From NCBI GenBank assembly GCA_026004935.1, contig BPKC01000001.1, forward strand, positions 2,305,381 to 2,369,380: 64,000 bases of DNA, written 5' to 3'. The stretch is from Rhodothalassiaceae bacterium. Lineage in GTDB: Bacteria > Pseudomonadota > Alphaproteobacteria > Sphingomonadales > Rhodothalassiaceae. The notes beneath the pieces are model-generated. The model worked only from the letters and a program-made list of their open reading frames with translations, was not told the DNA's origin and ran no database searches. The position numbers and the translations under genes are program-made. Shown here one piece after another: positions 7,544-15,894 of this stretch (positions are counted from its first letter, which is position 1; each line of letters opens with the position of its first letter).

Positions 7544-8299
7544 GTGCCGACGGACCCCCTGACGGTGAAGATCATCATGGCCGCGGCGGTGGTGGCCGTG
7601 GCGCTGGTCACGGGGCTGCCCGTGCTGCGCGGACGGCTCGAGCGGAGTCGGCCGGTCTTCGGCCTGATGGAGGCGCTGGCGGCCGGCGTCTTCGTCGGCG
7701 CGGGTCTGATCCACATGCTGGAAGACGCGGACGGCGAGTTCGCGAGCCGCGGCCTCGACTACCCCTGGGCCTTCGTGATCGCGGGATCCATGCTGATGCT
7801 GCTGCTGTGGACCGAACAGGCCGGCCACGTGCTCGCGGCGCGGGCGGACGCCGGCGTGCTCATGGCATGGCTGGCCGCCGGCATGCTCGCGGTGCACAGC
7901 TTTCTCGTGGGGGCGGCGCTGGGCGGCGAGAGCGGGCTCGGCGCAAGCCTCATCATCTTCGTCGCCGTGCTCGCCCACAAATGGGCGGCCTCCTTCGCGC
8001 TTGCGCTCGCCCTCGTGAAATCACCCTTGAGCGCCGGCGCCCGCCGGGGCGCCTTCGCGCTGTTCGTGGCGCTCTTTCCGGCGGGGGTCGCCGTCGGCGC
8101 CGGTCTGCAGCAGGTGGAGGCGGCCGCGCCGCTGGCGGAGCCGGTCTTCACCAGTCTTGCCGCCGGCACCTTCCTCTTCTTCGGGACGCTGCACGAGCTG
8201 GAGCGCGCGCCGCTGATCGCCGAAACCGGGCGGCTTGCCGGATTCGTCGCCGCGGCGGCCGGCTTCGCCCTCATGGCCGTGGTCGCGATCTGGACCTAG
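7544..8299 (+). CDS. ZIP-family metal ion transporter
   Basis: A 251-aa inner-membrane protein of the ZIP (zinc/iron permease) family with about eight hydrophobic spans. The paired metal-path motifs are visible: HSFLVGAALG in one helix and HKWAASFAL in the next. A GTG start at 7544 follows GGGAG; the first helix starts almost at once. The metal cannot be fixed from sequence; zinc, iron and manganese are all possible. Its TAG overlaps the exporter's stop tail to tail. Confidence 0.82.
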   Translation: MPTDPLTVKIIMAAAVVAVALVTGLPVLRGRLERSRPVFGLMEALAAGVFVGAGLIHMLEDADGEFASRGLDYPWAFVIAGSMLMLLLWTEQAGHVLAARADAGVLMAWLAAGMLAVHSFLVGAALGGESGLGASLIIFVAVLAHKWAASFALALALVKSPLSAGARRGAFALFVALFPAGVAVGAGLQQVEAAAPLAEPVFTSLAAGTFLFFGTLHELERAPLIAETGRLAGFVAAAAGFALMAVVAIWT

Positions 8300-10485
8300 C
8301 GCGGCGCCAGCCCGCCCACCGGCGCGGACCGGCCGGCCGCCGCAACCCGTGCGCGCGCCTCCGTGACGGGCACCTCGACAACCCGCCCGCCGCCCACGAG
8401 GAACACCCGGTCGGCGCGGGCCAGCAGGGTTTCGCGGTGGGCCACCGAGATGCGCGTGACGGACAGCGAGTCCAGCATGTCGAGCACGCGCCGCTCGGTA
8501 TCCGGGTCGAGATTGGCCGTGCCCTCGTCCAGGATCAGGATGCGCGGCCGGCGGTAGAGGGCGCGTGCCAGCAGCACCCGCTGCTTCTGGCCGCCCGAGA
8601 GCACCGTGCCCATGTCGCCGATGAGCGAGTCATAGCCCATGGGCATGGTGGCGATCTCGTCATGGACCTGGGCGAGGCGCGCGCATTCCTCGATGCGGGC
8701 GAGATCCGCCTCCGGATCGAAGAAGGAGATGTTGTCGGCGATCGAGCCGGAAAGCAGCGCATCCTCCTGCATCACCGCGCCGATCTGGCTGCGGTAGGCG
8801 GCAAGCCCGAAGGTCGTGAGCGCGATGCCGTCGACGAGGACCCGCCCCGCGCTCGGCTGAAACAAGCCGGCCATGATCTTGACGAGAGTCGTCTTGCCGC
8901 CGCCCGACGGCCCGATGAAGACGACATGTTCGCCCGTCGCGATCTCGAGCGTCACGTCCTTCAGCACCCAGGGCTCGCCCTCGGCATAGCGGAAGGAGAC
9001 GTTCTCGAGGGCGAGCGCGCCGGCGACGGGCCGAACGCCCGTCAGGGAGCGCACGGCGTCGCCGCCCGCGGGCTCCGGCTCGGCGAGCGCGATGTCGGCG
9101 ATGCGCTCCAGATGCAGGTCGAGCAGACGGAACTCGATCAGCCGTTCGACGAGCTTGACCGCCTTGTCGATGAAGTTCTGCTTATAGCTCATGAAGGCGA
9201 ACAGCATGCCCACCGTCAGCTCGCCCGCCATCACCGCCCGCGCGCCGAGATAGATGACCAGCACGTTCTCCAGACCGAACAGCAGCGTATTGGCGGCCTC
9301 GAAGCCGATGTTCAGCCGGCCGACGCGGATGCCGGCGTTGATGCGCTCGGCGTAGCGGTTCTGCCAGACGGCCTCCCGTTCCGCCTCGCGCGCGAACAGC
9401 TTGATGGACTGGATCGCGCGCACGCTTTCCATGAAGTTGGTCTGTTCCTTCGCGGCGGCGACGATCTGCTCCTCGTTGCGCTGGCGGAAGGCGCGGTAGA
9501 GGCCGAGTCTGAGCAGCAGATAGAGACCGAGCGCGGCCAGCACGACGAGCCCCAGCTTCCACGAATAGACGAAGATCAGGATGAGAGTCGCCACCGCCAT
9601 GACGCCGTCGACGACGGCCGACACCAGGCCCTGGGTGAAGAGATCGCGGATGGGGCCGGTGGAGGAGAAGCGCGAGACGATGTCGCCGATGTGCCGCTTC
9701 TCGAACCAGGAAAGCGGCAGGCGCAGCGTGTGGCGGAAGAGATTGGCGACCATCTGGAAGCCCAGCTGATTGGCCGCATAGAGGATGACGGTGCCGCGCA
9801 GGGCCTGGGTGCCGGTGTGGATGAGCACGAGAAGCCCGAAGCCGATGGCGAGCACCAGCAGGAAGTCGGCGTCGAACTTGACCAGCACCTCGTCGACCAC
9901 GAGCTGCATGTAGAACGGGGCGACCAGGGCGAAGATCTGAAGCAGCGCGGACAGCACCAGCACCTGCACGATCGCGCCGGCAAGCCCGTGCGCGCGCGTC
10001 CACAGGTCGGTCAGCCTCAGCTTCGCCTTTTCCTTGCGGGGCCGGAAGCCCGGCGCGGGCATGACCTCGAGCGCCACGCCCGTGAAGTGGGGCGAGATCT
10101 CGTCCAGCGTCATCCGGCGCACGCCGTGGGCGGGATCGTGGATGACGGCGGTGCGCCCTCGGACCTCCTTGAGGACCACGAAATGATTCATGTCCCAGTG
10201 CAGGATCGCGGGGATGGCGAGATGGGGCAGCGCCTCGAGCTCGGCCCTCAGCGGCCGGCAGGCGAGATCGAGGCGGGCGGCGATGGCGATCAGCTGCTTG
10301 AGATTGGCGCCCTTCAGGGAGACGGAATGGCGCCGGCGCAGGGTGTTGAGGTCGGTCTCGAAGCCATAGTAGCCGGCGATCATCGCAAGACAGGCCAGCG
10401 CGCATTCGCTCGCCTCGTTCTGGCGCACGAAGAGCAGCCGCCGGCGGCCCGAAAACTGCAGCAGATCGAGAACGCGCCCGTTCAC
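8296..10485 (-). CDS. C39-peptidase ABC exporter (PCAT/bacteriocin exporter)
   Basis: Bifunctional inner-membrane exporter that cuts double-glycine leaders and exports the peptide. In 729 aa: N-terminal C39 protease (catalytic Cys28 in RQNEASECALAC, His101 in DMNHFVVL, Asp117 in IHDPAHG), a six-helix ABC membrane domain about residues 165-440, and an ATPase with GPSGGGKTT, VMQED Q-loop, LSGGQKQR, LILDEGTANLD and an AHR switch. The start is taken as GTG 10485, where homology to C39 begins; the longer frame adds only Arg/Ala-rich codons. All three double-glycine precursors upstream are on this strand and point toward it, so they are its likely substrates. No HlyD-type adaptor or TolC gene is in the window. 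Confidence 0.93.
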   Translation of the reverse strand: MNGRVLDLLQFSGRRRLLFVRQNEASECALACLAMIAGYYGFETDLNTLRRRHSVSLKGANLKQLIAIAARLDLACRPLRAELEALPHLAIPAILHWDMNHFVVLKEVRGRTAVIHDPAHGVRRMTLDEISPHFTGVALEVMPAPGFRPRKEKAKLRLTDLWTRAHGLAGAIVQVLVLSALLQIFALVAPFYMQLVVDEVLVKFDADFLLVLAIGFGLLVLIHTGTQALRGTVILYAANQLGFQMVANLFRHTLRLPLSWFEKRHIGDIVSRFSSTGPIRDLFTQGLVSAVVDGVMAVATLILIFVYSWKLGLVVLAALGLYLLLRLGLYRAFRQRNEEQIVAAAKEQTNFMESVRAIQSIKLFAREAEREAVWQNRYAERINAGIRVGRLNIGFEAANTLLFGLENVLVIYLGARAVMAGELTVGMLFAFMSYKQNFIDKAVKLVERLIEFRLLDLHLERIADIALAEPEPAGGDAVRSLTGVRPVAGALALENVSFRYAEGEPWVLKDVTLEIATGEHVVFIGPSGGGKTTLVKIMAGLFQPSAGRVLVDGIALTTFGLAAYRSQIGAVMQEDALLSGSIADNISFFDPEADLARIEECARLAQVHDEIATMPMGYDSLIGDMGTVLSGGQKQRVLLARALYRRPRILILDEGTANLDPDTERRVLDMLDSLSVTRISVAHRETLLARADRVFLVGGGRVVEVPVTEARARVAAAGRSAPVGGLAPR

Positions 10486-10852
10486 CCCCGCCTGTCGCCC
10501 CTTCGCACCCTGCCCCGCCCGCTCGCCTGCAACCCCGCTGCATGCCGCGCGGCGGCGGCGTGCGGACGCCGCGCATGCCCGGCCCGCGCGTGACCGCAGC
10601 CTTGGCCGCGGCCGCGCCTCTCGACCCATGCTGGCACGACGTTCACCCCGCTCCCGCTTCTAGCCGCATGGCCAGGCGCTGTCCAGCCTCTCCACCGCAA
10701 CCTCCGACTGTCATTATCTTTAGATCCATAGATATAATTGTAGAAAAAATCAATCACCCCCTTATCTGTAATTTGAGCAAAGAGACTTAATGAGTTTAAA
10801 ATTTTAATCATATCGAAGAAATATAGACATACATAGAACGCGAAAATAGACA
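10486..10852. other. AT-rich gap upstream of exporter
   Basis: 367 bp between the exporter start and membrane protein A. The part from about 10720 to 10860 is strongly AT-rich and continues the composition of the adjacent membrane-protein gene, whereas 10486-10690 returns to high GC. Minus-strand hexamers resembling TTGATT and TATATC occur but I would not assign a promoter. The composition step probably marks one edge of the acquired island. Confidence 0.4.
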
Positions 10853-11455
10853 CTATTTTAAATTGCGCTGCAATACGGCTGTGTCGCATCCATCTTTGGT
10901 GAGACGCATCGAAATAAGAGAGGCAATTATCCCCATTGGCATAATCCAAATAGCAAATATAAATAAGAGTATGGAAAAACGGCCATCTAAACCAATGTCA
11001 ATTGCCATATTGATAAGCCCATAATTAAACGCCAGAACCAGCAAATTATTTATAAATCCACTCAATCTGGCCAAAGAAACATATACGCACATAAACACCG
11101 CCATCGTGACAATATTTGGTCTGTTATATATTGGCCTGCCTCGTCCAAGTTTCCAGAACTCCCATCCAAATCTTGCGTATTTACAGCGATTTATTGCCAT
11201 GATAATGTACGTAATCATAGTTATGAGGAAATCAGAAATAAGTGCATACCTCAATATGCTGAATGCGATCTCACCACGCGTTTTCCCAGCGTGTAGACTT
11301 GTCCATTCCAATGAGGGATCGACCACACTGGTCGCGATATCAAGTGCAACCGCACCAGTTACCATCAGGGCAGGCACGACGAAAGCGCGGCAGCGGAGCG
11401 GCCGTAGAGCCATCTCAGCCAGACTGCAGGACGTTGTTCGGGCTGACGTCTCCAT
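10853..11455 (-). CDS. Membrane protein A, candidate immunity protein
   Basis: About 200 aa, four to five predicted membrane spans, with no family I recognise. It is clearly paralogous to the protein at 14582-15193: shared blocks include RAFVVP near the N-terminus, ALD..T, LEW, FG.EF..LG, SGF.NN and FNYG.INMA.D.GL. Both sit about 40 bp downstream of a precursor ending in the CxCxC motif, so a cognate immunity or peptide-handling role is the best inference. The ATG at 11455 is preferred over a GTG 6 nt upstream because GGAAG is well placed. The coding region is unusually AT-rich (24 of 60 bases are G/C at 10981-11040) in a very GC-rich chromosome, which suggests transfer. Confidence 0.72.
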   Translation of the reverse strand: METSARTTSCSLAEMALRPLRCRAFVVPALMVTGAVALDIATSVVDPSLEWTSLHAGKTRGEIAFSILRYALISDFLITMITYIIMAINRCKYARFGWEFWKLGRGRPIYNRPNIVTMAVFMCVYVSLARLSGFINNLLVLAFNYGLINMAIDIGLDGRFSILLFIFAIWIMPMGIIASLISMRLTKDGCDTAVLQRNLK

Positions 11456-11496
11456 CGGCACGCTTCCACTGCCGGCTTCGTGACGCTTTCAACGGC

Positions 11497-11760
11497 TCAA
11501 CTGTTCTCGCTTGAAGCGCCGCACTGGCAGTTGCACTCTACACTACCATTGTGAGCGGTCGCCGTGGCACTGGAGTTTGATTGAGCTGATTCGCGACCGA
11601 GAACATAGCCAAGCAAGCCTGTGATCACCCCGACGACGATGGGGGCAAGTGGAATCGCCCCTCCCTTGACTTCTTCCAGCTCCTCTCTGGTGAGCTCACG
11701 GATGGCGGGTGTGGTGGTGACGGGAAGGTCCCGTTCGAAGGTTGCAACAGCGGTCGTCAT
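11497..11760 (-). CDS. Double-glycine peptide precursor 1 (CxCxC core)
   Basis: An 87-aa bacteriocin-like precursor. The leader (residues 1-34) ends RELTREELEEVKGG, the canonical double-glycine signal read by C39 exporters. The 53-aa core has a hydrophobic stretch (about 35-55: IPLAPIVVGVITGLLGYVLG), then a Ser/Ala/Thr-rich linker and the tail GSVECNCQCGASSENS with Cys at 76, 78 and 80. No modification enzymes are nearby, so the cysteines may form disulfides or bind metal. The start has GGGGAG 6 nt upstream. Promoter and first ~24 codons are nearly identical to precursor 2; the core matches precursor 3. Membrane protein A follows 41 bp downstream. Confidence 0.87.
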   Translation of the reverse strand: MTTAVATFERDLPVTTTPAIRELTREELEEVKGGAIPLAPIVVGVITGLLGYVLGRESAQSNSSATATAHNGSVECNCQCGASSENS

Positions 11761-12100
11761 GAGTGACTCCCCTCATCTCCAGATTGCCGATGCATCCGGG
11801 GAATGGCAAGAGGCGCAAGACGCTCCGGAACCGTGGACCCGGCGGGACCATCCTTTGCCGGGCCACCCATGCCCGGCCGGGCGTCCCTGCCGCCTTGTCG
11901 GGAAGATGCCCCGCGACCGTCATCCGGGCGCCCCTCTTCCCCTCCCCGAATCACCCGGTGATCCCCACCGGGCATCCCTTCCATTACCCCCCCCCCCCCC
12001 GTTCCCTTTTGTCAAGCGCAGATCCGCTCCCGCACGCAACCGGCATGGGATCTTTGCCGCCATCTTCCCGGCCCCGAAGCGCGCAGCCGGCGCCCCAGAC
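11693..12100 (-). repeat. Promoter-leader cassette, copy 1
   Basis: 408-bp direct repeat covering the candidate promoter, about 216 nt of untranslated leader and the first codons of precursor 1. It matches 13245-13650 except for a few substitutions, three single-base indels and the length of the C tract, and matches copy 3 over about 300 bp. Hairpin arms at 11954-11960/11966-11972 (CCCGGTG/CACCGGG) and 11838-11843/11857-11862 are conserved in all copies. The indels break every reading frame across copies, so the leader is not translated. Confidence 0.92.
11983..12015 (-). promoter_or_regulatory. Promoter with G14 spacer tract, precursor 1
   Basis: Minus strand: TTGACA -35 (12010-12015) and GGTAAT -10 candidate (11983-11988, matching TATAAT at four of six positions), spacer 21 bp. 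The spacer contains part of an uninterrupted run of 14 G (11987-12000 on the plus strand reads C). Tract-length change would alter the spacing. -35 is perfect; the -10 is my choice and not proven. Confidence 0.6.
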
Positions 12101-12247
12101 AACGGCACCCGCAGGTCCACCGCCACACAGCCTGGCGCATCAGATTTCCCTATTCAGCAGGGCACTGAGCAATCGGCTCCGGGCACGGAGGGCGCAAGGA
12201 GAACCATGGAAGGCACCCGTTTGCCCTTTGCGCCCGGAGCCTTGCGC

Positions 12248-12415
12248 TCATGCGCCGCGCCCGATGCCGTTGGCGTCCTCATGCTGAACGACATCACCGT
12301 GATCATGGAAGGCCCCGTGCAGGTATCGGCCCATGTAGATGCCCATCAAAAAGATCAGGGCCCCGGCAACGATGACACCAAGCATGAATACGCCGAAGGG
12401 CACCTCAAATTTCAC
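12248..12415 (-). CDS. Small single-span membrane protein, His-rich tail
   Basis: A 55-aa ORF from GTG 12415 with GAGGGAG upstream. One transmembrane segment (about residues 8-27, FMLGVIVAGALIFLMGIYMG) is followed by a short polar tail rich in His and acidic residues (HGAFHDHGDVVQHED). It lies downstream of precursor 2 and membrane protein m2 on the same strand and just before cassette copy 1. Function unknown; an accessory or second immunity peptide of the island is possible. Codon support is limited by length. Confidence 0.5.
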   Translation of the reverse strand: MKFEVPFGVFMLGVIVAGALIFLMGIYMGRYLHGAFHDHGDVVQHEDANGIGRGA

Positions 12416-12618
12416 CAGCCTTCTCCCTCTTTTGGAGCAGCCGCCACCCGATGCTGCATCTGGATGGGCTGCTTCCATCAGTTTGCCCGGCTCGGCTCAG
12501 GGTCGGAGTTGCTGCTGGTCGAGTGGTCATGGAAAGCACCCTGAAGGGCGCGCCCCATCTCTACGCCTGTTTAAAAAAGACCGGCACCAGCAACGACCTT
12601 CGCCACCACCAGCTACGT

Positions 12619-12855
12619 TTACTGAAGAAACTTAGATGCTGCAAAGTTCGCTAGCTTGGTGGCAATGACGATAAAAATTGGAATAAATATTGCAGTAACG
12701 ATCACGGTAGTTGCTAGAATTTTCCTATTATCTTTATTCGACAAAACATGTTCTAACGATACCCTCGATACCCTCTCCAGAGAAAGTAGGGCAACCCAAC
12801 TGAAGGCTGCAAAGCAGCCAACCACGGTGATGGTAACAATCGCCCAGCCGGACAT
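12619..12855 (-). CDS. Two-span small membrane protein, candidate immunity for precursor 2
   Basis: 78 aa from ATG 12855, preceded by GAGGA at good spacing. Two hydrophobic segments (about 4-26 and 49-70) flank a charged middle containing VSLEHVLSNKDNRK. No recognisable family. It is the first gene after precursor 2 (134 bp gap) and is unrelated to membrane proteins A and B, which follow the CxCxC precursors. This pairing suggests a core-specific immunity protein. The gene is more AT-rich than the surrounding genome. Confidence 0.6.
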   Translation of the reverse strand: MSGWAIVTITVVGCFAAFSWVALLSLERVSRVSLEHVLSNKDNRKILATTVIVTAIFIPIFIVIATKLANFAASKFLQ

Positions 12856-12988
12856 GGTGGCATTCCTCGCTTCATATGCGCTGACCCATGCGTCAATCCG
12901 CAAGAGAGGGAGGCGGGACAAAGAGTCCTTACTCGAAGAGTGTGACAGCCTGGCCCGCCTCCCCCTTCCCTCCTACAACGCCCCAACA

Positions 12989-13312
12989 TTAAGCATTCGA
13001 GTCGAGAACGCGGGAGGCAACATATTCGGCCCCGATGAAAACGGCGGTCGCAAGAACTGCCGCCACGAGCCCTACACCCGTACCCGCGGCAGCGCCGACC
13101 AGCAGCGCTCTTCCGATTGTCGCTCCGGCCCTTATAGCGGCCCTTGCCACAAACCCTCCAGTGAGAAAGAAGCCGGTAGTTGCAGCCGCTGCAGCCGCGT
13201 CGCCCGCACTCGCTCCCGACACCCAGTCAATCTCCTCCACCGTCAGCTCACGGATGGCGGGTGTGGTGGTGACGGGAAGGTCCCGTTCGAAGGTTGCAAC
13301 AGCGGTCGTCAT
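12989..13312 (-). CDS. Double-glycine-type peptide precursor 2 (Ala/Gly-rich core)
   Basis: A 107-aa precursor. Residues 1-24 are identical to precursor 1; the leader then reads RELTVEEIDWVSGA, ending Gly-Ala rather than Gly-Gly, a variant accepted by some C39 peptidases. The 73-aa core has no cysteine and is rich in Ala and Gly, with long helical hydrophobic stretches (GRALLVGAAAGTGVGLVAAV) and small-residue spacing like class IIb or microcin-type pore-formers. It has its own copy of the promoter cassette and different downstream partners from precursors 1 and 3. Confidence 0.82.
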   Translation of the reverse strand: MTTAVATFERDLPVTTTPAIRELTVEEIDWVSGASAGDAAAAAATTGFFLTGGFVARAAIRAGATIGRALLVGAAAGTGVGLVAAVLATAVFIGAEYVASRVLDSNA

Positions 13313-13650
13313 GAGTGACTCCCCTCATCTCCAGATTGCCGATGCATCCGGGGAATGGCAAGAGGCGCACGACGCTCCGGAACCGCGGACCCGGCGGGAC
13401 CATCCTTTGCCGGGCCACCCATGCCCCGGCCGGGCGTCCCTGCCGCCTTGTCGGGAAGATGCCCCCGCGACCGTCATCCGGGCGCCCCTCTTCCCCTCCC
13501 CGAATCACCCGGTGATCCCCACCGGGCATCCCTTCCATTACCCCCCCCCCCGTTCCCTTTTGTCAAGCGCAGATCCGCTCCCGCACGCAACCGGCATGGG
13601 ATCTTTGCCGCCATCTTCCCGGCCCCGAAGCGCGCAGCCGGCGCCCAGAC
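13245..13650 (-). repeat. Promoter-leader cassette, copy 2
   Basis: 406-bp copy of the cassette. Identity with copy 1 extends from codon ~24 of the precursor through the leader, promoter and about 85 bp beyond the -35. Identity stops sharply inside the leader-peptide coding region, where the two precursors diverge, so the boundary of exchange lies within the gene. Confidence 0.92.
13537..13566 (-). promoter_or_regulatory. Promoter with G11 spacer tract, precursor 2
   Basis: TTGACA (13561-13566) and GGTAAT (13537-13542) with an 18-bp spacer, the closest of the three to the optimal 17. The G tract is 11 bases (13541-13551). If the promoter reading is right, this copy should be the most active as sequenced. 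Confidence 0.6.
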
Positions 13651-13738
13651 CATGTGATGGAGACGCCGCGCAGGCCGCCCTCACCCCTGCCCTGCGGATC
13701 TCGCCGCACTTGCCGCCGGGCAACCGGAGGACGAGACG

Positions 13739-14020
13739 TCAGGGGCCGCCGTAGAGCTTCCTAATGATGGGCAGGCCCACGACCGTCAGAACCGAAAAGA
13801 TCCCGAACATGACAGCCTTCATGCGACCGGACCAGGCTGTCCCCGCATGCAATGCCACCTCGGGCAGCAGGGCGAACGCCAACCATGCGGCAGCACCGAC
13901 CCCGCAAAAGACGAGGTAGAGCGTTCTTGGAGACCACGGATCCTTGCCTGAAGTCAGCAAGGAGACAAGGGCCAACGCCACGACCAGCGCCGCACCATAA
14001 CCGATCGTGCCTGCCTTCAT
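13739..14020 (-). CDS. Three-span small membrane protein
   Basis: 93 aa from ATG 14020 with GGAAAGG upstream. Three hydrophobic segments near residues 7-23, 33-53 and 68-87. No family recognised. It lies between membrane protein B / m4 and cassette copy 2, on the same strand, so it belongs to the island and may be cotranscribed with precursor 3. Function unknown. Confidence 0.55.
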   Translation of the reverse strand: MKAGTIGYGAALVVALALVSLLTSGKDPWSPRTLYLVFCGVGAAAWLAFALLPEVALHAGTAWSGRMKAVMFGIFSVLTVVGLPIIRKLYGGP

Positions 14021-14213
14021 TACCAGCCCTTTCCTTCCCTTCACGAACCGGGAGGAGACTGAAGAAATAAATCCTCCGATCCTTTCTCGCCTGCGTGCTC
14101 CCTGTAATGGAAGCGTCGTTCCGTTCCCATCCGCTGCTCTCTCCACCCACCACCGTTACTTGACAACCCGTCAGCGGGCCTAGAGAAGCTCCTTGCCCTC
14201 ATGCTCCTGACCC

Positions 14214-14474
14214 TCAGGTGTAAACCAAAAAAGCCAGGACGAATCCAATGCTTGCGGGGATCAGGGAGACGACGGCGGCCACCACCACATCCCGCAAAAG
14301 CGTCGGATGGAAGTGAACACGGTAGCGACCAGATGGATTTTCTTTTGTGCCACGCGTGGCGTCGCCAACGCCCAACCGCCGCTCGCCCGACTTTCTGCCA
14401 GCGGTGTAGGCACAGATCGCGAGGAAACTGATCGCCCAGGACCCCGCCGCAAACCAGAGCAGCTTGTCTGCCAC
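14214..14474 (-). CDS. Two-span small membrane protein
   Basis: 86 aa from GTG 14474, with GGGAGGG at proper spacing; upstream codons in the frame look non-coding. An N-terminal span (about 5-24) and a C-terminal span (about 62-85) flank a basic middle with GRKSGERRLGVGD and FHPTLLRD. No recognised family. It follows membrane protein B on the same strand. It could be part of an immunity or export-accessory set. Confidence 0.5.
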   Translation of the reverse strand: MADKLLWFAAGSWAISFLAICAYTAGRKSGERRLGVGDATRGTKENPSGRYRVHFHPTLLRDVVVAAVVSLIPASIGFVLAFLVYT

Positions 14475-14581
14475 CGTTGTTTCCCTCCCCTCTGGCCGCG
14501 CCCGTTTGAGGAGCGCGACGTGGCGAGGCCAGGCCCCCTTCCCATCTTGGCGTGCCGCAGAAGACGCCAAGCACCAAGACC

Positions 14582-15193
14582 TCAGGGGGTTGTCATTACG
14601 TCGTTGCGCGAGAAGCATCGTGGAAGGACCCCGTCGTAGGTAAGACATCGCGTTAACCACACTGCCACTGGAAACGCAAAGAGTGACCACCCCGCTACAA
14701 CAAACATCAATATGTTCGCCGACCCGGAAAGACCCATGTCCTTCGCCATGTTGATGAATCCGTAATTGAAAAGGAGAACCATTACGTTATTAACAAATCC
14801 ACTGAATCGGATTAGCGACATAGATACAGTTGCAAAAATAATCAACGTTGTCAAGTTATGTTTGTCGTATATTATATGATCTTTTCCCAATCTAAAAAAT
14901 TCTTTACCAAATTTCGAATATACACATTTTGTGACATACATCGCAGTATACAATATCGTAACGACCAAAAGATCGGCAAACATCGCGAATGTAAACATCT
15001 TTCCTAGGAGCTGTTCTCCATCGAGCCCTCTGTACAACGGATTCCATTCTAACTGCAGCTGCGAAATTGTGGTGCCAACATCAAGCGCGAGCGCAACTAC
15101 AACCATCACCGATGGAACCACAAAAGCCCGGCGTCGGAACGGCCGAACGGCATTCCGAGCAACATCTGCTAAAACGTTGCGCGGTACTGCCAT
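14582..15193 (-). CDS. Membrane protein B, candidate immunity protein
   Basis: 203 aa, four to five spans, paralogue of membrane protein A across its length (RRAFVVP, ALDVGT, LEWNPL, FG.EFFRLG, SLIRFSGFVNN, LLFNYGFINMAKDMGLSG). It directly follows precursor 3, whose CxCxC core resembles precursor 1, so both copies keep the same precursor-membrane protein pairing. Start: GGAAGG places best with the ATG at 15193; another ATG is 9 nt upstream. The gene is extremely AT-rich for this chromosome (16 G/C in the 60 bases 14881-14940). Confidence 0.72.
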   Translation of the reverse strand: MAVPRNVLADVARNAVRPFRRRAFVVPSVMVVVALALDVGTTISQLQLEWNPLYRGLDGEQLLGKMFTFAMFADLLVVTILYTAMYVTKCVYSKFGKEFFRLGKDHIIYDKHNLTTLIIFATVSMSLIRFSGFVNNVMVLLFNYGFINMAKDMGLSGSANILMFVVAGWSLFAFPVAVWLTRCLTYDGVLPRCFSRNDVMTTP

Positions 15194-15238
15194 GATGGCC
15201 ATCCTTCCGCCGGGCTTTCGCGTCGACCGAATATCTTG

Positions 15239-15517
15239 TCAGTTGCTGTTGCTTTGGCTGTTCGCTCCACACTGGCAGTTGCACTCGACTGTGCCGTCAT
15301 GGGCCGTGGCTGTTGCCGTGGCCTGGGATTCGGCCGTGTCCCTGCCGACGAAGTACCCAACAACTGCCCCGACAATTGCTATGGCCCCATAAACCACGAT
15401 AGGGGCAACACCCCCCTTTACCTCCTCGCACTCCTCCATGGTGAGCTCGCGGATGACGGGTGTGGCGGTCGTGGCGCCGGCAAGGTTCCGGTCCAAGGTT
15501 GCAACAGCGGTCGTCAT
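15239..15517 (-). CDS. Double-glycine peptide precursor 3 (CxCxC core)
   Basis: A 92-aa precursor, leader 1-36 ending IRELTMEECEEVKGG, with a Cys in the leader at position 30. The core carries a hydrophobic span (about 38-57), then ATATATAHDGTVECNCQCGA and a Ser/Asn tail; core cysteines at 79, 81 and 83. Compared with precursor 1, the linker and motif (ATA-AH-G-VECNCQCGA) are kept while hydrophobic and terminal residues vary, which points to functional constraint on the motif. Promoter cassette copy 3 precedes it and membrane protein B follows 45 bp downstream. Confidence 0.87.
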   Translation of the reverse strand: MTTAVATLDRNLAGATTATPVIRELTMEECEEVKGGVAPIVVYGAIAIVGAVVGYFVGRDTAESQATATATAHDGTVECNCQCGANSQSNSN

Positions 15518-15799
15518 GAGTGACTCCCCTCATCTCCAGATTGCCGATGCATCCGGGGAATGGCAAGAGGCGCAGGGTGCTCCGGAACCGCGGACCCGGC
15601 GGGACCATCCTTTGCCGGGCCACCCATGCCCCGGCCGGGCGTCCCTGCCGCCTTGTCGGGAAGATGCCCCGCGACCGTCATCCGGGCGCCCCTCTTCCCC
15701 TCCCCGAATCACCCGGTGACCCCCACCGGGCATCCCTTCCATTACCCCCCCCCCCCCGTCCCCTTTTGTCAAGAGCATATCCTCTCCCGCACGCAACCG
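15494..15799 (-). repeat. Promoter-leader cassette, copy 3
   Basis: About 306 bp shared with copies 1 and 2, from the precursor start to just past the -35. It is more diverged at both ends: the leader-peptide coding part is only similar, and similarity stops around 15799. It is therefore probably the oldest duplicate, or copies 1 and 2 have been homogenised more recently. Confidence 0.88.
15741..15772 (-). promoter_or_regulatory. Promoter with G13 spacer tract, precursor 3
   Basis: TTGACA (15767-15772) and GGTAAT (15741-15746) with a 20-bp spacer; the G tract is 13 bases (15745-15757). Same geometry as in copies 1 and 2. Confidence 0.6.
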
Positions 15800-15894
15800 T
15801 TTAACACGCGGCGCCCGACAGGCCGTGATCCGGCCGTCCGCATCATGGCCCCGGCGCCGGGAAAGGGGCCAAAGCCGGCCGAGCCGTCGAATTT

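Follow-up and report, generated by a model that had tools for sequence, protein, structure and literature searches.

The window analysed here is a stretch of 64,000 nucleotides (64 kb) of the 2.91-Mb genome of a Rhodothalassiaceae bacterium (GCA_026004935.1, contig BPKC01000001.1; this genome is G000 below). The subject is an island on its minus strand, in which three precursors of double-glycine-type peptides (P1, P2 and P3) each follow a copy of one repeated cassette and are read toward a C39 exporter. The three open reading frames (ORFs) of the precursors are located where the original prediction had put them, and repeat search and alignment agree with it that a near-identical stretch, here of 330-405 bp, stands before each one. 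The main feature of the cassettes, which that prediction overlooked, is a poly-G tract placed between the −35 and −10 elements of a putative promoter. The precursors, cassettes and promoter elements are as follows.

11497-11760, minus: precursor P1, 87 residues; double-glycine (GG) leader, predicted cut between ...EEVKGG and AIP; hydrophobic core, then a C-terminal CNCQC motif
12989-13312, minus: precursor P2, 107 residues; predicted cut between ...WVSGA and SAG (a GA site); leader head as in P1, core unrelated
15239-15517, minus: precursor P3, 92 residues; double-glycine leader, predicted cut between ...EEVKGG and VAP; core homologous to P1
11695-12095 (repeat unit from about 11675), minus: cassette copy 1, with promoter, untranslated leader and start of the leader peptide; 97.8% identical to copy 2
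13247-13646 (repeat unit from about 13227), minus: cassette copy 2, from repeat finder and alignment
15450-15799 (repeat unit about 15432-15800), minus: cassette copy 3, alike only from 27 bp upstream of TTGACA
11981-12015, minus: promoter core 1; TTGACA 12015-12010, 9 nt, G14 12000-11987, TAATGG 11986-11981; spacer 23
13535-13566, minus: promoter core 2; TTGACA 13566-13561, 9 nt, G11 13551-13541, TAATGG 13540-13535; spacer 20
15739-15772, minus: promoter core 3; TTGACA 15772-15767, 9 nt, G13 15757-15745, TAATGG 15744-15739; spacer 22
11948-11977, minus: hairpin 1, with the core CCCGGTG-GGGAT-CACCGGG at 11972-11954
13526-13508 and 15730-15712, minus: hairpin cores 2 and 3, downstream of the −10 element

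The repeat finder describes the cassettes as three copies of one long unit (families D1-D3). Copies 1 and 2 (403 and 402 bp) are identical in 396 of 405 alignment columns and differ by two single-nucleotide substitutions and three insertions or deletions, all three inside G runs, the largest being that of the promoter tract (G14 vs G11). The length of the tract is the main difference between the copies. They share 80 identical bases upstream of TTGACA and then the whole untranslated leader, and the identity ends about 66-70 nt into the leader gene, within the leader-peptide gene as had been foreseen; the leader heads of P1 and P2 are identical in 20 of 20 residues. Copy 3 is 97-98% identical to the other two in the untranslated leader and about 80% in the leader gene. 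A search of the untranslated leader in Rfam gave no match of note.

The claim that the cores are unrelated holds for copies 1 and 2 but not for copies 1 and 3, because the cores of P1 and P3 are related (56% protein identity). Likewise, the idea of a fixed promoter-leader unit with swapped cores is borne out by the chimeric structure of copies 1 and 2 at the leader and by a similar pair in a second genus, described below, whereas its novelty is smaller than thought, since conserved leaders with exchanged cores are already known from the blp locus and the prochlorosins. An origin of the leader tail and core of P2 from a peptide of the L011 type (see below) was also considered, but only a weak match of 14 residues was found and this origin is unsupported.

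In each of the window cassettes the hairpin CCCGGTG-5 nt-CACCGGG begins exactly 8 bases after TAATGG, and there is no canonical sigma-70 promoter elsewhere on the coding strand of the island cassettes. The promoter part of the cassette reaches beyond the island, its core being found at four further precursor loci and in one degenerate copy. A profile of the precursors finds nine of them in the genome, those outside the window being the following.

C1:1009999 (L011): G8, same core and same hairpin; before MAHAVAMFDHG...VRPLTVDEMDAVWGG, microcin-like
C1:2868680 (L012): G11, same core and same hairpin; before MLGIIPQVP...VRELDEKELPFVFGG, microcin-like
C1:1035744 (L013): G11, hairpin different in sequence but at the same distance; before MAIPSSANR...LSSQEINQIGG, graspetide-type
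C1:1096480 (L023): interrupted tract GGGGAGGGGGG; before MRPSFKPFG...ELESIRGG and an ATP-grasp-like frame, graspetide-type
C1:2754576 (L167): short interrupted TTGACT...GGGGAGGG-TAGAGG with hairpin; GG precursor and ATP-grasp-like frame, graspetide-type
C1:733018 (L166): C7T6 spacer between TTGACA and TATGAG; GG precursor and ATP-grasp-like frame, graspetide-type

A homopolymer tract of pure G8-G14 is thus found between −35 and −10 in six of the nine precursor promoters, at the same position and with the layout TTGAC-N9..12-G8..14-TA..... The spacers between −35 and −10 over the loci measure 13, 14, 17, 19, 20, 21, 22 and 23, two loci having the canonical 17. The tract is always upstream of the start codon, at a distance of 187-266 nt at the loci of the window, L011, L012 and the related genome G001 (introduced below) and of 113-134 nt at the graspetide-type loci. 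The stretch (G)TGCGTGCGG is shared upstream by the window and L011 promoters, while a TCAC-N6-GTGA-like box upstream of −35 is common to the graspetide-type promoters except L166. At L012 (with L006; G000:C1:2868195-2868680) the gene after the precursor encodes, in place of the small membrane protein, a 309-residue protein that resembles an alpha/beta hydrolase and has a membrane segment at its N-terminus.

The hairpin keeps a constant distance from the core across the loci, with double changes at two pairs. Its z-scores from single sequences are mostly −1 to −2.7, several being weaker, and covariation as proof of an RNA function is suggestive only, given that 28 of 500 shuffles scored as high. 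We have also considered an upstream frame starting from the TA-ATG after the tract, with the tract as the ribosome site and frameshifting as the switch. This was rejected because single-G insertions or deletions break the frame differently in each copy and because the ATG is not conserved elsewhere.

The association of the poly-G core with double-glycine precursors is specific in its own genome. In the window, no G or C run other than the three promoter tracts exceeds seven. The genome contains six G runs of at least 10, where base composition would predict about 20 in a first-order and about 90 in a zero-order estimate; five of the six are inside such promoters, all before double-glycine precursors. 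The sole such run outside the peptide promoters (L014, G000:C1:2097605) consists of GGGGGGGA followed by G11. If the island is taken as a single event, three of the four G-run sites are in the right orientation and no more than 300 bp upstream of one of the nine precursor genes; our own simple arithmetic, not the output of a tool, puts the chance of this at about 4e-10.

All five matches of the strict pattern TTGACN{8,17}G8TARTG in its own genome stand before precursors; the 297 remaining genomes of the order have no match, and the reversed controls gave none. With G7 instead of G8 the genus yields six matches, of which five immediately precede precursors and the sixth lies where a contig ends, again with empty controls. 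A covariance model of the core recovers the six sites from which it was built (five in this genome) and, in seven genomes of the family, yields only two further matches, both weak (L023 and L019). The exact promoter-plus-palindrome pattern had no match in 84,980 genomes, a set from which this genome and near ones may have been excluded.

The same architecture is present in other species. G001, the metagenome-assembled genome (MAG) Alphaproteobacteria J084 and the only other genome of the genus compared, has the core with G9 before MTNVVATCDRAMPVTMATPGIRELTLEELKTVGGG, and its promoter cores contain tracts of G9 and G7. Two more near-identical cassettes occur in it at contig ends, as assembly breakage at repeated cassettes would produce, one of them before the orthologous exporter. 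In this last cassette (L041, G001:C1, 8000-8597) a T-to-C change is seen in the −10 element (CAGAGT) and the precursor, MASLHDAKPFGLWHHDRKEPLFATRGL, is truncated after 27 residues; cassette and truncated precursor sit directly upstream of the exporter. In G002, an uncultured member of the Sphingomonadales from the same family and a second genus, two precursors with tracts of G11 and G8 stand beside a homologous exporter (L067), their promoter-leader cassettes being largely identical and diverging only after the GG site.

We have also surveyed 80 loci of homologous exporters (0.99 Mb) with the pattern TTG[AG]C-G6+-T[AG]. Five sites were found, all on the strand of the exporter, and none in the reversed control. 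Those of more distant genomes are listed here.

L105, Pseudohongiella (gammaproteobacterial MAG): G12, before the homologous precursor MGDLSIVNADLDCGIQELSNEEIDLVSGG
L109, Pseudomonadales MAG (gammaproteobacterial): G16, before the homologous precursor MNDLSIGDPSTDYGILEMSSEDIDLVSGG
L098, Francisellaceae MAG: G6, spacer 17, TATTAT, before MRHLNTEEMSSISGG

At L105 (5422) and L109 (874) a membrane protein resembling CPBP/CAAX proteases lies between the precursor and the exporter and is a plausible immunity gene. In other alphaproteobacterial genomes, several of them small (L147, L150, L151 and L154), TTGAC, a tract of G10 to G12 and TA.... precede genes of which several have signal-peptide-like starts, the spacer being 17 in L147 and L151. 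They may be phase-variable promoters, so far unreported, of proteins that are secreted or at the surface.

The remaining genes of the island are the exporter and a set of membrane proteins.

8296-10629, minus: C39 peptidase-ABC exporter of PCAT type, last gene of the island, assigned from Pfam domains and alignment with PCAT structures
10853-11461, minus: multi-pass membrane protein, 202 residues, putative immunity partner; 35 nt after P1, several segments of transmembrane (TM) type
12248-12478, minus: single-TM ORF, 76 residues, between modules 2 and 1
12619-12921, minus: membrane protein, 100 residues, putative immunity partner from its TM-like segments and its position after P2
13739-14146, minus: small membrane ORF of module 3, probable start the internal MKAGT
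14214-14690, minus: small membrane ORF of module 3, annotated start uncertain
14582-15202, minus: four-TM protein, 206 residues, putative immunity partner; 36 nt after P3

The exporter carries the Pfam domains Peptidase_C39 (119.5 bits), ABC_membrane and ABC_tran in one chain, and its residues 16-707 align with the solved PCAT structures 4ry2/8vp3. Cys, His and Asp are in place in the C39 domain and all modules are co-oriented toward it, as had been noted before. Its G001 orthologue is 77% identical. At a second C39 locus (L033/L046, G000:C1:1309190) a membrane-fusion-type protein precedes a C39-ABC gene whose peptidase and ABC parts are in different frames, an apparent frameshift; at the G001 homologue of this locus (L044) the C39-ABC frame is open for 533 residues, up to the contig end.

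The partner proteins of P1 and P3 are 39% identical, and that of P1 gave no Pfam match above threshold. The most likely products of the precursor genes are bacteriocins or microcins, accompanied by putative immunity proteins. The double-glycine leader of class II microcins is present (GG in P1 and P3, GA in P2), the cores are small and hydrophobic, and P1 and P3 score 26.4 and 27.3 bits with TIGR03949 (lactobin A/cerein 7B, class IIb), over the curated cut-off of 21.5 bits. P2, on the other hand, had no match in the same scan. A fusion protein or TolC partner was not seen beside the exporter (8-16 kb examined; no genome-wide search was made). In each of the four dispersed graspetide-type loci a GG precursor is accompanied by an ATP-grasp-like protein, as graspetides are by maturases of the MvdC/MvdD and SAV_5884 types. 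That of L013 comes after the precursor, is of the SAV_5884/MvdC/MvdD kind and matches TIGR04187/04185/04184. Unlike in established graspetides, the ATP-grasp scores are under the curated cut-offs. The promoters of these loci are of the same poly-G type at two (one interrupted) and otherwise degenerate or of a different form.

Our preferred interpretation, to which we assign a probability of roughly 0.6, is that the cassette is a contingency promoter for secreted peptides, made phase-variable by slippage in the homopolymer, with cassettes kept alike by recombination and with exchangeable cores. The poly-G tract would constitute most of the spacer between −35 (TTGAC) and −10 (TA....), and slippage during replication would alter the spacer length. 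How strongly the double-glycine gene downstream is transcribed would change with it, randomly and independently from one peptide gene to the next. The transcript would start at the short hairpin, which may act as a 5′ stabilizing hairpin or alternatively as an operator, and would run through the untranslated leader into the genes of the precursor and its membrane-protein partner; the precursor would then be cleaved at its GG or GA site and leave the cell through the C39 exporter. The homology between cassettes may let recombination join new units of leader tail plus core to a working promoter and leader, and the P1/P2 chimera and the G002 pair seem to show the products of such events. The tract length differs between near-identical copies (11, 13 and 14 in the window cassettes) and covers 7-16 over the loci. 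A spread of spacers from 13 to 23 is hard to explain without slippage drift, because ordinary promoters tolerate spacers of about 16-19. The constant position of the core before the precursors, its specificity in its own genome, its recurrence in other genera, the retained hairpin, the lack of another canonical sigma-70 promoter on the coding strand of the island and the porA precedent described below likewise speak for the interpretation. The sequences themselves show the anatomy and number of the copies, their tie to double-glycine precursors throughout the genome and the conserved layout in other species, whereas promoter activity, switching, export, toxicity and immunity are inferred.

Several observations weigh against this interpretation. 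The −10 element TAATGG of the window copies matches poorly and most of the spacers (19-23) are longer than optimal, so that nearly all promoters would be weak in the sequenced cells; under the proposed mechanism, most promoters of the genome would become strong in rare variants only. Two to three of the nine precursor promoters have interrupted or other tracts, which means that switching is not needed by all. The tract lengths in the assembly may be off by one or two, and their comparison rests on paralogous copies from one genome per species, not on isolates. Class-wide, a looser pattern is found in 10 of 385 genomes compared to 5 with a match of the reversed control, which is near background. 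In exporter-bearing genomes, the G-tract promoter matches away from the peptide loci are not at peptide genes. Overall, the promoter design is judged to be tied to double-glycine peptides yet phylogenetically patchy.

With regard to the product, the peptides might be signals or act on the producer itself, as in programmed lysis, rather than kill competitors. We consider this rather unlikely, although it fits any promoter model. The gonococcal Nap peptides combine GG leaders and a C39 peptidase with phase-variable tracts; they bring about autolysis but do not kill competitors (PMC11798529). Each module of the island, on the other hand, has a membrane protein right behind the precursor, in the manner of immunity genes, and the scores of P1 and P3 place them with class IIb bacteriocins.

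With regard to the promoter, the G tract could be a spacer with a fixed structural role, through its stiffness or the binding of an activator, in an otherwise conventional promoter, with the hairpin as operator or messenger stabilizer and no random switching. The conserved boxes upstream of −35, namely the TCAC-N6-GTGA-like box of the graspetide-type loci and the (G)TGCGTGCGG stretch, do suggest an activator, and spacers of 19-23 nt suit activator-dependent promoters better than unaided sigma-70. What varies between near-identical cassettes is, however, precisely the tract length, and long G runs are otherwise strongly avoided in the genome; we regard a fixed spacer as unlikely.

Plain tandem duplication and gene conversion of three bacteriocin modules, in which core swapping and switching would not be functions, is quite improbable. 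It would account for cassettes that are 97-98% identical while the partner proteins share only 39%, and for the fact that the G001 cassettes resemble each other and differ from those of G000, a sign of concerted evolution within each genome. However, the core is also carried by other genera and by dispersed loci whose precursors are unrelated and do not share a leader, for which recent local duplication cannot account. A mobile promoter unit resembling a miniature inverted-repeat transposable element or a repetitive extragenic palindrome, driving peptide genes by chance, is very improbable indeed: a palindrome does stand beside a homopolymer in dispersed copies, but flanking duplications or terminal repeats are not visible by eye and, when repeats at many unrelated genes were looked for, the element was found in its own genome only before double-glycine precursors and always in their reading orientation.

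A slippage-switched promoter has a precedent in porA of Neisseria meningitidis, where a poly-G tract between −35 and −10 is a proven switch and 9, 10 or 11 G change the expression (PMC3639595). Both systems have the tract at this position, with lengths that differ between near-identical sequences (here paralogous copies). They differ in that porA is a single surface-protein gene of a pathogen, whereas here up to nine peptide genes per genome are concerned, with a conserved hairpin behind −10 and recurrence at the peptide loci of other genera. The nap island of Neisseria gonorrhoeae combines GG-leader peptides, a C39 peptidase and homopolymeric tracts, but there the tracts are inside reading frames (poly-G in napR, poly-T in napC) and act by frameshift, while here they are upstream of the start codons and not in the peptide frame; promoter tracts or a duplicated cassette are not reported for nap in the part of that article available to us (PMC11798529). 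The blp locus of Streptococcus pneumoniae has several double-glycine bacteriocins with shared leaders, leader/core recombination and a PCAT exporter (PMC4860687). It is regulated by a quorum-sensing pair, whereas each cassette here has its own poly-G promoter, and no quorum-sensing peptide, histidine kinase or response regulator was found among the ten island ORFs scanned (the island only; the wider genome was not searched).

Taken one by one, the ingredients are known: poly-G switching of promoters, C39 exporters of double-glycine peptides, the exchange of cores behind shared leaders, and also ORF-borne phase variation of double-glycine peptides. Promoter-borne tracts across a whole peptide set appear to be new; we found no report of them in the open-access literature on phase variation together with bacteriocins, microcins or double-glycine peptides. 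A wider reading, which we put forward tentatively and at slightly less than even odds, is that of a peptide phasome, in which practically every member of the double-glycine arsenal, microcin-like or graspetide-type (at least six sites), has its own slippage-switched poly-G promoter. Subsets of toxins and immunities would then be expressed at random within a clone, cassette recombination would shuffle both cores and switch states, and the arrangement would recur at homologous exporters in Alpha- and Gammaproteobacteria.

The signature of TTGAC, G tract, TA and hairpin reveals small peptide genes that annotation has missed; in this genome it led to four more precursors, two of them microcin-like and two graspetide-type. 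The group is little studied, its nearest named relative being the uncultured MAG J084. If the proposal of slippage-switched promoters is correct, toxin production in these bacteria would be a random, heritable lottery for each gene rather than a response to quorum sensing or stress, with consequences for the clonal upkeep of costly toxins and for bet-hedging in bacterial warfare. Phase variation, which has mostly been studied in surface genes of pathogens, would then extend to arsenals of secreted peptides.

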